Assembly (NCBI GenBank): GCA_034190875.2
Contig: CM067349.1
Location: 30,268,359 to 30,332,358 of the forward strand
Direction: 5' to 3'
Length of the DNA stretch: 64,000 nt
From: Urechis unicinctus
Taxonomy: Eukaryota > Annelida > Polychaeta > Xenopneusta > Urechidae
This document shows positions 7,301 to 28,938 of the stretch, piece after piece. Position 1 is the first letter of the stretch, and each line of letters opens with the position of its first letter. The position numbers and the translations under genes were made by a program. The notes beneath the pieces are model-generated. The model had not been told where the DNA came from, searched no databases, and saw only the letters and a list, made by a program, of their open reading frames with translations.

Positions 7301-9511
7301 TGTAAACGGCGGCAATTCTGTTCACTGAGCATCTCTTATGTTACATAGATATGATGATGATTGAGGGGGCGGTTAAGTGGTTGGATTAGCAATGTTGTTT
7401 ACAGGTAGGTAGCATGGTAGATTGGTGTACAGGTAGGTTGTAAGAATCAAGTGTTTTGTTCGGGTAAATCAGCAGCCACTTAGTACAAGTGCAGACAACT
7501 GTGGACGAAGCGTCAAAAGACGCTAGCGTTATCAACAGCGTCTGTAAGATCGCATTTAATGACGCGCATGCGGATGACTCCACATCCAGGATGACGCGCT
7601 TATATAGCAGTACTCGGACCCTCAACCCTCTCTCACATCATCGCTTCCTCCCTCCGATAACCTCACGTACTCGACCCTCATTTCATGGCTATTATAAACC
7701 CAGTTTTACACCCGTGCCTCCCTCGCCAGCCAGTACCTGCCCAAACCCCAGTACACCCTACTCCATAAATAAGCCAGGCTCTATGCGTTACTGCTTGTGT
7801 GCTTATATACAGCGTGGGCTGCTGTCCAGAGCGGGCCCGCCGGCACTTACCGCCTGCCGGGTGTATCGCAGCCCGGTACCGACTCTCTGCCCTGACAAGA
7901 ACAGATAAATAAAACCACAACAACAATCGCTACAGAGTCTACTCCTAAAAAACCTCTTGTAGGGGATTTATAAGATATTACCGACGATTGATGTGACGTC
8001 ACGCGGCCGTAGATCAGGCGGGCTGACAGAACAGTGTTTACACTGGTTGTCGGCGGCCAACGGCAGAGGCGGTCCATGTAATCTGCTTGAGGAGGGGTGG
8101 GGGTAGGGAGATGAATGAGGCGGGGTGAGGTGAGAGATAAGCCAGATGTATGAGACACAACTTTTGACATAGGGGATGGTGTGTCGAATGCGGTTATCGT
8201 GTGGGTGCCCTGTATTGTCGATCGCATGTGTTTTGTGAAATACGAAATTGATAAGTTTGCATGCATTCATTAGTGAGCTTGTACGCTTGTTGTTTCTATG
8301 GGAATAGAATATACATACATACATTGATGTGTCACATTTGCATCGATATATTGTCTGTATCAATATGTCATGTCGTTATCTATATGTCAGCCAGTATCAG
8401 TCCGCTGAGGATGTATCACTATTCCTTGTCTCTATTAAAGTGTCATACCCGTTTCAATATGTCATGCAACAAGTCCCGTGCGCATGAGCAGTCAATGGAT
8501 CAGTTGGCCTGTTATTCAGATCATCGCAATTGATACCTTACAGCGAGTACATCAGCCGAACTGAGACAACACGACTACGACATCGACCGGACGTCCGGTG
8601 ATGCATGTTGTCATGGTAACCGGCTGTTATCACTAGCCGTGATGACGGGGGGAGGTCAACCATGCGCACAGACAGCTGCCCTCTCTCCACGACATGAATT
8701 GACCCTTCGCATGACCTCTAAGGTCACAAGGAATGGTGAACTTAGCCTTCACGTACACTGGATACACTAATGAGTGATCTGGGCGTCGGCAGGAAGAGGT
8801 GGTCAATATACGGTGATATTGACCCAAACATACTGCATATCTAAATGTCATGTCATGTCATGTCATCAACAGTAATGCCTTACAGTTTCACCAAGTCACT
8901 GTTCCCTTTGCGCTCATAATCCGTGTAGCAATAAACCGCCAAGTGTGGAGACCAACTGGAGGCTGCAACTTTAGTTCGGCGTCAAGGCGATATTAGGCAG
9001 CATAATTACATCATTCGTGACGTGTGTGCTTGGAATTCAGAGGTCATTAGTTGAATACCCTGATAACGAGTTTTTGACGCCTAGTCTGCAGATCAATGAG
9101 TGTTATGAGGCTGTCTGTGCAATAAACATGTTACAGATCACGCCCGCTGTGTCGATATTATTGAGAAAAATTTGGCCGATTTATGACAGGAAATTAACAA
9201 GTAAAGGTGGCTGTCATAACGTTCTGCGGCAGCTGACTGGCTTGGGTCGCGCGGCGATGGGGAAGAAGGAGACCTGGTAAGAAAGGCGTCCCAGTGTGGC
9301 GCTTCATTAAACGCCCCCCTGTCAGTCGGCGGCCACTGGGCGCTTTCTCGCCAAGCTGAAGCGAGCGCCAACACAAGCGCCCCGCAGTGGCTTCACATGG
9401 AAATGACAGAACTGCGGCAAAAAAATCACCCAGGCGCACGACCGCCTGGTCGACAGTGAATTCACCTTACCTTCTCTGGTTTATCCGGCTCTTATCAGTT
9501 GCCATCTGTCG

Positions 9512-9660
9512 TGACGTCATGTGATTGGTTCCGGCTCAGCTTAGCATCCAGTTTTACGTTGCGTCATTCGCTAGTTGCGTCTATATCGGCTAATTTGATA
9601 CCTTCAGTTTCGGCTTAGCTTTAGAACCTAACAGGCCGCCATCTTGGAGCTAGCCATGTA
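9512..9660 (+). promoter_or_regulatory. candidate promoter-like cluster: CRE, inverted CCAAT, YY1-like site
   Basis: A perfect CRE palindrome TGACGTCA (9512-9519) is followed after four bases by ATTGG (9524-9528, an inverted CCAAT box). A TATATC word lies near 9581, and GCCGCCATCTTG at 9635-9646 matches the reverse of the YY1 consensus, a common initiator-region element in animal TATA-less promoters. An ATG just downstream at about 9656 meets a stop at once, so no coding sequence follows directly. Promoter function is an inference. Confidence 0.3.
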
Positions 9661-12257
9661 AACACAGCTGCGCCGAACAGGGTGCGCATTACTCCTTCTG
9701 ATTTATTACTCTTTGGGAGGAAACTAACGCATTTTTTTTTGCCTTTACCCAGCAGTGAATGAATTATAAAAACGAATTTCGTTAGAAAGTTTTATGTTAA
9801 GTCATTACTTTTTTTGCCAGATGAAATTCAGCACCTACTTAGTGTAGCAATCGGGCCTGAAACCTGACACTTTTCAATCAGGAATATTTACGAGACGGCA
9901 ACCCGGGCACGCCCAAATCTGCCACGTGATTTGAGGGGCATTCCGGATGTCGGGTCTGGTTTCAGAAGCTCCGCCCATCGGCCTATTTGGCCGGCTGCCA
10001 ATAGATAGGCACAGCCCTCATTCTCGTAGGTTAAACAGCAAAACAGCCCGATCGAACCAGTCTGACTCAGTAACGATCGTTTTTAGATAAACAAACTAAC
10101 ATTTGACGTCGTAGGCAGGTATGCCTACCAATCATTTCTCCGGGAGGTATTAAAACAATTGACCTAATTTCGAATGGTGTTATTTGGAGTTGTCTCTCGT
10201 GATGTTTTTCAATGAGATATTGACTACGAGCAGTTCCTCCGCGATAAACTCTGTACTGCATGAATTGATGAAGCTCTCCGCTCGCTTCTGGACCTCACAA
10301 GTTTATTTTCGATCAGACAGAATGATAAGCTACTTTCATTTTCATTCAACATTTGATATCATATCATTGGAATCATATTGAAATGCAGGGCTTATGTGAA
10401 TGTCTATGGATTTTACACTCCATATATCTGTTGACTATATATGTATATATCGGTATTTGTGTGTATAAATAAATAAATAAATTTATTTTTAAAACAATAA
10501 TGCTCGTGGTAAGAATTAATAAATGACACATTGATTTGTACTCCAATGAACGCGGACATGTGGACATTCTAAACATTGCCCTTTTTGCTTACATTCATGC
10601 TCAAATGCCAGCAAATTCACACGCGCATTAACCACCAAAATGGATATTATTTCCCGGGGTCTGTAGCAGGCGCAGGGCTTCACTCTGTTGTCGTGTGTCT
10701 AGAACACTTCGATGTCCTTGATTACCTATATTACCATACATAAGGCGAGTCGCCTTGTTATTGAGTTGTTCATTTTAGAGCAATTTCTTTTTATTCAAAC
10801 GAATTTACTTATTCCTGAATGGATGATGAATTTATTCAGTTCAATGGCCTCATTTGATGTTGTTTTTGGCGCAGACGACATTTAATGAAGACTGTTCTGT
10901 GAGGACGCAGATGGATTGAATTCTGCATGACGTCAGATAACGTTAAGCTTATCAGTCTATGTACCATGGAATCGTCTGAGTGTTAAATGACTTGGGAGGA
11001 ATCTATAAATAACTGTCCTAAATTATCATTATTGAAACCTTTGATGCAAACCATTATGATTTTGGTTGTATAAATGGACACCTGCTCGTCGACTCTTTGT
11101 GCGATGCCAGCCGGATTTGAGACACATTCTGTCTGTTTGTGTGCGCTATCAAACAAGAAGAACAATGGTATAAATGCTTCAACGTTCCCCTGTATTGTCG
11201 GGTGTGGAAGAAATGATGACGTCATCATGGATGCGGCAGAGCTAACCAGGCGGCCACTGATTGATTGCAAAAACTGAGTTACAGCGTGATTGTAAAAGCC
11301 TTATTATCGCCCATGTGAATTCGTCAACAGTCTGGCTATTGTGTAGATATCTCTCGAGTTCCAACCACTCCGCTTGTGTTAACGCTTGATTGTGCCCATC
11401 ACTGGACGAGGCGACACTGATAAATGAAGCTTGTGTGTATATATATAGCACTTTAATCTGGACTTAAAAACTGGTTGACTAAGACGCCAGTAAACAAAGC
11501 GATGGCCTGCTTTACAGACGGAAGGACGCCAACCCCCGCGACCGGACGCGAATCGCGCGAGGCGGAATTGATAGGTTTGTTTGTATATATATGGCGGATC
11601 CTCGATTACATGTTCTCGGTTTTTTTCCGACCTCAGGCCTGGCGTCCGCACTTACAGGTTATAGAATGAGTGCTTTAGGTCTGCTAAATAAGCGCACACA
11701 CTCGCCTAGACCTCAACACCGCGCCAACGCATGTCCACCCCTAGCCCTACCCCACCACCATTCATACTTATTGAACAAATAACGTGAAATGTTAAATCTT
11801 GTTTATGTCAACAAAAACGAGCGAGAATCTATAGGAGCTATGTTTGGGGAAGAGAAAAACTCTATTTCGATGTTTCTTTGCGACTTTCGTCTTCGAGCCT
11901 CACTCCCCAAACGCCCCCACATCACACTCATACAACGTACCACGTGACAATAATAACTACCGCGCTAGTTAGTTCTCCGGCTCATACTCCAGGTAAATAA
12001 AAATGCTCACGTCGAATCCATGGAGGCGTGTATGGTGATAGCGACAGAAGGATGAAATCAGCACCGCGAGGTTGATCCCGCTTGACGATATGAGAGGGAC
12101 ATTAAAGTGATATTCCAGCCAACTGAACGAGATTATAATATCACAGACTTCACTCATTTATTGAATAATTCCGGATTTTAAAGACAGCGAGAACCATAGT
12201 TAGGAAGGTTTTCCTTTTTTTTTCAAACGCTTCGATAAGGGCTGATTTCATAGTCGG

Positions 12258-27896: not shown

Positions 27897-28070
27897 CTAG
27901 GTCAGATTTTACCCCCAACACCAAGACACAGAATTTTTTTATCTCACCTAACACGCTGATGAAATAAACTTATTAAGTGCATAATCGTAATCGCTTTGAT
28001 CACGAATAACCAAATTTGATGTTTCCAGAAATTATCCTAACCTTAATGTTGTACATAGATTCCATTCAAG

Positions 28071-28110
28071 TGCTCTGACACATTTTCGAGATAAAATGTG
28101 TGCTCTGACA
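28071..28110. repeat. perfect 9-bp hairpin bracketed by a 10-bp direct repeat
   Basis: ACACATTTT (28078-28086) and AAAATGTGT (28093-28101) are perfect complements around a six-base loop. TGCTCTGACA occurs at 28071-28080 and again at 28101-28110, overlapping the arms. Confidence 0.8.
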
Positions 28111-28938
28111 AGCTTTGAAGACTGAAGCTGACAGGATATGCAACGCCTCAGGAAGTTTGACGCGTGCATAGGTGGGGGTTTCCTCATAGTCCTCTAATTA
28201 CAACATGTAAGCGTGTACGACGTGTGAGTTAACTGCCGAACTCAACTCGACATCATCACATGAAGGTTGCCCGATTTGACAACGCTGCAAATCCAAAACG
28301 CGCACAGCATAGGACTCCGTTGTTTTGTGTTTAAAACTCTGTGATTATCCTTATTCAGTCATATGCGCTTGATATTAAATTATTAAATAGACAAGTTAAG
28401 GAAAAATAAGACAACACAGCTGAAAAAGTGCTGTTTTCACTCAAAGCGCTCTTATATCTTTTATGTGACCAGGTCGAAAAGGTAATGCTAAAATCATGAT
28501 GATAAGAGGTTATTTACACTGGCTGATTTTAACTGGCATGCTACGCCTGAAGTGTATAGGAAACTTTCCCATGCTGTCCGCTACGCGTGAATAGCACGTG
28601 ACCCCGATGGTCACGAGTTCCGCGCAGGTAGAGCGCGGACAGATAACGGTTGACAAACCGCATGGTATATTATGGTTATGTCAGTGCATGTACACCAGGC
28701 GAGGTCTGACAGTAAATATACAGCCCTATAAAAACAGACTCAACGGGAAATGAAACACTATACCGGGTTTATACGTGGCTGTCATCATTGTGGTGTATGG
28801 TATCTCGGCGGTGATTGATGAAGAGGACTGGGACGCCTGGATGACGTCACCAGTGCTATATGTACTCTTTGGGACGGGGAAGGAGGGGGGATGAGATTTT
28901 GGGAGAATGTGACTGAGAATTTTTTTAGAAGAAGTTGA

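Follow-up and report, generated by a model that had tools for sequence, protein, structure and literature searches.

A dense stretch of exact CRE palindromes, candidate CREB/ATF sites, in the genome of Urechis unicinctus

The window analyzed here, a 64-kb stretch of the genome of the annelid Urechis unicinctus at C8:30268359-30332358, is occupied for the most part by tandem arrays, and all twelve of its exact copies of TGACGTCA, the palindromic cyclic AMP response element (CRE) and a predicted site for CREB/ATF-type bZIP dimers, lie inside the remaining 19,841 bp of non-array DNA (Table 1). Ten open reading frames (ORFs) of the window and six-frame translations of 3821-5561, 7283-13370, 19560-22283, 22999-28939 and 29122-31645, a scan that covered the larger non-array pieces, gave no Pfam match above the curated cut-off; three window ORFs had no match in a large protein set, and an Rfam search of the DNA returned none.

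Table 1 Positions of the twelve exact palindromes in the window and of the stretch that they span (flanks: base before/base after the octamer)
Feature	Position	Strand	Flanks	Remark
Exact TGACGTCA	7994..8001	.	G/C	
Exact TGACGTCA	9512..9519	.	G/T	12 bp further: ATTGG box (9524)
Exact TGACGTCA	10928..10935	.	A/G	
Exact TGACGTCA	11217..11224	.	A/T	mid-point of 16-bp palindrome 11213-11228
Exact TGACGTCA	12274..12281	.	G/C	minus-strand ATGGCG at 12258, 16 bp off
Exact TGACGTCA	12496..12503	.	G/A	ATGGCG at 12480, 16 bp off
Exact TGACGTCA	13158..13165	.	C/C	
Exact TGACGTCA	19805..19812	.	A/T	
Exact TGACGTCA	21959..21966	.	G/C	
Exact TGACGTCA	24325..24332	.	G/C	11 bp further: ATTGG box (24336)
Exact TGACGTCA	25773..25780	.	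G/T	19 bp further: ATGGCG (25792)
Exact TGACGTCA	28842..28849	.	A/C	
Site-dense stretch, 20,856 bp	7994..28849	.		no Pfam match above curated cut-off in six-frame readings of 7283-13370, 19560-22283 and 22999-28939

The preliminary description of this DNA had listed the palindrome at these twelve positions, in roughly 19 kb of non-array DNA where about 0.3 copies would be expected, and every copy proved to be exact. Markov models of orders 0-3 predict 0.28-0.9 copies with the sites retained, and models of orders 1-4 predict 0.32-0.48 with the sites removed; the expectation climbs to 2.3-9.4 at orders 4-6 with the sites retained, since at those orders the sites themselves feed the model. The mean was 0.44 and the maximum 3 in 200 order-3 simulations of the non-array DNA, compared with 1.96 and 8 in 100 dinucleotide shuffles of the whole window, and even an expectation of 0.9 gives a Poisson P below 1e-9 for twelve copies. 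TGACGTCA is the commonest 8-bp palindrome of the non-array DNA and, together with the overlapping GACGTCAC, takes the top two places among all 8-mers, while the 23 other palindromes with one each of A, C, G and T per half occur at 0-2 copies. The informal control CACGTG was found seven times, as described before, against 3.85 expected. Inside the window the sites show no clustering among themselves but an even spread (block-to-block variation P 0.23), with a mean gap of about 1.3 kb measured in non-array DNA, where their density amounts to 605 per Mb.

The excess is one of the exact 8-mer, not of its neighbours or of other bZIP words. One-letter neighbours of the palindrome, in 12 classes, number 11 in the non-array DNA against 8.3-10.0 expected, i.e. 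the word has no halo, and this count is compatible with at most 8-10 decayed copies (95%). Neutral relics would be expected to include such copies. The hexamer TGACGT has another continuation only seven times, compared with the twelve palindromes, and the half-site TGACG is found 65 times against 34 expected, 24 of the 65 coming from the palindromes. None of six other 7- or 8-bp bZIP words exceeds two copies: TGACTCA occurs once (3.65 expected), TTGCGCAA twice (0.31 expected) and TGACGCAA twice (0.67 expected), with no copy each of TTACGTAA, TGAGCTCA and TGACGTGG. The ETS-CRE composite GGAAGTGACG was looked for and has no copy. Around the sites, CAGGCG/CGCCTG (8015, 9431, 9443, 11247, 12295, 28834 and others) occurs nine times within 150 bp and four times in the remaining non-array DNA; it is a possible partner word, but with 1,492 words tested its P of 4.5e-5 is not significant after correction.

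In the genome as a whole (1.19 Gb) we counted 66,201 copies of TGACGTCA, or 55.6 per Mb and about one per 18 kb, compared with 22,557 copies of the backward control word ACTGCAGT and with expectations of 15,728 from base composition and 17,738-31,351 from sample-based Markov models. A genome sample of twenty 10-kb pieces of contigs C1-C12, picked by position alone and holding 173,131 bp of non-array DNA, contained seven copies against 2.6-4.6 expected, with little CpG depletion (observed/expected 0.83). From the full count and the sample together, the genome-wide excess is about 2- to 4-fold. The window is denser still: its non-array DNA exceeds the genome mean over all bases 10.9-fold and the non-array genome sample 15-fold (P 4e-8), and with arrays included the 20,856-bp stretch has twelve sites against 1.16 at the genome rate (P 4e-9), the whole 64 kb twelve against 3.6 (P 3e-4). 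The genome sample led us to drop an initial reading of the excess as wholly genome-wide, and the full count led us to drop the opposite one, of a wholly local excess. The preliminary description had offered dense regulatory DNA and genome-wide over-representation as an either/or, and each holds in part, the genome being 2- to 4-fold enriched and the stretch about ten-fold denser, with regulation the inferred element. The genome count lies above the Markov expectation, so the window is not a lone outlier in a genome otherwise near that expectation.

Sites are also clumped elsewhere in the genome. Among 100 sites listed for contig C1 the first twelve, several of which recur at 6.83-6.86 kb (judged by eye from the list), were excluded when clumping was fitted; the other 88 have a squared coefficient of variation of gap length (CV2) of 1.8 and 11 gaps shorter than 1 kb against 4.5 expected, and their densest 20.9 kb holds six sites. 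Given this clumping, the locus is extreme, perhaps one of several in the genome. The omitted sites, twelve copies in 15 kb at the start of the contig (C1:543-15170) with four pairs 6.83-6.86 kb apart, perhaps represent a tandem unit.

The bases adjoining the octamer are also biased. A purine (R) before or a pyrimidine (Y) after it is found at 21 of 24 flank positions of the twelve window sites, and both flanks fit at nine of the twelve (chance 4e-4). Among 35 fetched genomic loci (L001-L035), the 22 sites of L009-L035 fit at 33 of 44 positions, a count that omits L001-L008, where the retrieval word fixes the flank, and retains both sites of L015, though these are inverted copies. Pooled, 54 of 68 flank positions fit R/Y (P 6e-7 for a null fraction of one half and 1e-4 for one of 0.577). 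The bias would be explained by a bZIP dimer reading ten bases, and ten-base forms of the CRE have been documented as GTGACGTCAC (PMC4555227, PMC3464117) and ATGACGTCAT (PMC3534124). The full palindromic CRE shares with the window sites both the exact TGACGTCA and the adjoining purine and pyrimidine. In passages of PMC3464117 on human proximal promoters, TGACGT is enriched solely when CA follows, which is the same continuation bias as in the window.

Beyond these bases the flanks differ, as had been described. The best in-register match of any pair is at chance level over 12, 20 and 40 bp (Monte Carlo P 0.14, 0.76 and 0.22), no in-register run is longer than the 8 bp common to 12274 and 13158 (P 0.06), and identity averaged over 20 bp is hardly raised (0.269 vs. 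0.254; P 0.05). The sites at 13158 and 28842 do share the 14-mer TGACGTCACCAGTG noted earlier, a match of 6 bp beyond the word; it occurs 42 times in the genome compared with nine for its backward control. Two of its matches (L003 and L004), 333 kb apart on contig C3, lie in inverted, closely similar sequence, and some of the 42 may be repeat copies. BLAST of the window against itself and against the 35 fetched loci found no element common to the sites; near them it yields only GACCCATCTGCAGATGGGTC repeats, close to two sites and without TGACGTCA. These repeats are 21-bp palindromic units in direct and inverted orientation at 24414-24969 and 25621-25727 and also in L031 and L032, over a span of about 53 kb. 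Another small element does bear the word: in L015 (3426-3527) two copies of TGACGTCA lie 94 bp apart in the inverted arms of a hairpin (TTTCCTGTGTGACGTCA / TGACGTCACACAGGAAA).

The window sites might instead belong to a dispersed repeat, such as a miniature inverted-repeat transposable element (MITE) with TGACGTCA in its ends or core, and the pair of arms in L015, the 6.83-6.86 kb recurrence seen among the first sites of C1, the 8 bp and 6 bp shared in register by 12274/13158 and 13158/28842, the slightly raised 20-bp identity and the position of the sites 24325 and 25773 outside an inverted repeat pair (24406-24467 / 25666-25727) could be read in its favour. The best pairwise flank matches and the longest run do not depart from chance, however, and the fetched loci match only through the site-free GACCCATCTGCAGATGGGTC repeats. 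Repeat copies of a word without a halo would also be young, and their flanks should then still match. A repeat origin of the window sites is largely ruled out, and we consider it very unlikely; no single dispersed repeat, which the preliminary description had named as fatal to its proposal, was found to link them.

On both sides of the window the palindrome is unevenly distributed. The 40 kb upstream contain 0, 2, 2 and 0 copies (L034, L033, L029 and L030, respectively) and the 30 kb downstream 0, 1 and 10 (L031, L032 and L035), so that the window and both flanks, 134 kb in all, hold 27 sites where the genome rate predicts 7.5. The ten sites of L035 form a second cluster within 10 kb, 20-30 kb past the window, where Markov models expect 0.2-0.27. 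This cluster overlies a minus-strand gene (L035:991-4698) that reads as a BMI-1/Psc-like Polycomb gene from its predicted protein: two predicted adjacent exons match RAWUL in order (E 9e-5 and 2e-3, each below the curated cut-off), and all four PDB matches of the first of these are BMI-1 chains (best E 3e-4). After the RAWUL exons comes a last-exon frame of 1,062 amino acids with GRPPGRPPGRG runs, which we take to be AT-hook-like; searched whole, this frame matches no Pfam family, and in PDB just weak circumsporozoite chains (E 0.03). All three of its Asp-Val-Thr runs are encoded as TGACGTCACG, for which the gene's own codon use gives a chance of about 1e-4 (8-mer) or 2e-6 (ten letters) in a post hoc test. 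The frame ends 56 kb beyond the twelfth window site. Genes nearer to the stretch may exist, as domain scans in the flanks covered parts of L031 (plus frames of 1255-8500, minus frames of 7000-8500) and of the L035 minus strand (frame 991-4176, three frames of 4100-10000 and one of three of 1-990), with long open frames listed for L029, L030, L032, L033 and L034; the exon-like frame L031:7697-7978 matched nothing convincing.

On balance we favour the interpretation that the twelve palindromes are a homotypic cluster of predicted CREB/ATF-type bZIP dimer sites, probably under selection, in a stretch with no recognised gene. Each site would be bound by a CREB/ATF dimer, and this binding would keep the word intact by selection; the cluster would couple a gene in the vicinity, possibly the BMI-1/Psc-like one, to cAMP or stress signals. 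A regulatory role is likely from the sequence, and several observations weigh against it. The recognised gene is distant, its frame ending 21 kb past the window. Promoter grammar is sparse, with ATTGG no more than 12 bp from two of the twelve sites and ATGGCG no more than 19 bp from three, and GC content is up only near the sites (0.476 vs. 0.428 within 40 bp, 0.432 vs. 0.430 within 150 bp). TGACG half-sites outside the palindromes are barely raised (41 vs. 34), and the flank test is weakened by the purine that precedes 72 of 112 (64%) other TGACGT words in the fetched loci. Three of the ten L035 sites fall in coding DNA of the last-exon frame, which suggests that something may favour the word whatever its context.

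The last point would suit a process that enriches TGACGTCA in coding and non-coding DNA regardless of transcription, for instance through biased repair, modification or recombination there, as proposed for the cyanobacterial palindrome HIP1, with the window as a dense patch. The 2- to 4-fold excess across the genome, the exactness of the window word and the identical codons in three of three coding occurrences are all in keeping with such a process, and in yeasts CRE (M26) sites are starting points of meiotic recombination (PMC3534124). One site per 18 kb is nevertheless far below the once-per-kb density discussed for HIP1 (PMC4390886), the C1 sites are clumped, and the R/Y flanks suit a protein reading ten bases, so that we regard this explanation as rather unlikely. 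Similarly limited credence is given to a more far-reaching proposal, in which the 66,201 letter-perfect palindromes, coding and non-coding, would be a genome-wide iterated signal set out in domains of 20-100 kb, among them one extending to the BMI-1/Psc-like gene, with a bZIP factor marking domains, not promoters. Slightly more doubtful is that the locus is simply the far end of what normal clumping produces in an enriched genome and has no special role. A negative binomial fitted to 79 bins of one 1.65-Mb stretch of C1 predicts about three equally dense stretches genome-wide (at least 12 sites per 20.9 kb), which also counts against the favoured interpretation, and the whole window is just 12 against 3.6; plain Poisson, however, gives 2e-4 such stretches, the fit comes from a single piece of C1 that itself reaches only half the density of the locus, a second cluster of ten sites starts 55 kb from the first, and clumping in turn requires a cause. 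Chance or a composition artefact has nothing in its favour except the look-elsewhere effect and is hardly credible, with 0.3-0.9 copies expected and three the best of 200 simulations.

Homotypic clusters of transcription-factor sites usually measure between a few hundred bp and a few kb. The stretch resembles them in that one predicted factor-binding site recurs many times in non-coding DNA, each time between unrelated flanks, and differs from these shorter arrangements in its 21 kb, in its wide mean gaps and in the second cluster over a gene. CRE palindromes have densities of about 3 per Mb in human and 5 per Mb in mouse. The whole-genome counts behind these figures are 10,389 for human and 14,297 for mouse (PMC3464117 Table 3), a large contrast to the 66,201 in the 1.19 Gb of Urechis. 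In passages of PMC1796609, CREs are biased toward transcription starts in vertebrates and not in sea squirt, fly and worm; the twelve sites lie where no gene was recognised. The high count relative to mammals fits the idea that vertebrate genomes lost their CREs through CpG decay (PMC1796609). A genome with CREs at 2-4 times expectation, little CpG depletion and clusters of exact sites offers a CREB/ATF site landscape without vertebrate-type decay, and it also allows a direct test of the possibility that domains rich in CREs mark certain genes, in this case perhaps a Polycomb gene. A title-level, non-exhaustive literature search found no report of CRE over-representation in a comparable genome.

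HIP1 is likewise an over-represented exact 8-bp palindrome with CpG, found in coding and non-coding DNA, but it is far denser genome-wide and tied to methyltransferases (PMC4390886); the 55.6 per Mb of the CRE in Urechis falls short of a HIP-like density near one per kb. The M26/CRE hotspot of fission yeast consists of the same palindrome and depends on Atf1-Pcr1 (PMC3534124), and any link of recombination to the arrays of the window is speculation.

The arrays have some features of their own. A 45-bp tandem repeat at 4329-4564 has an open minus-strand frame that codes a 15-residue unit, for which no homologue was found. At 32242-62699 a 32-bp unit is repeated about 935 times to form a 30-kb minisatellite, and 30 bases of the unit have no exact match in genome_contigs and viral_contigs. 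Within it, 34939-37393 and 37494-39948 are 100% identical over 2,455 bp and flank a gap of 100 N (37394-37493); the assembly has probably duplicated this segment falsely.

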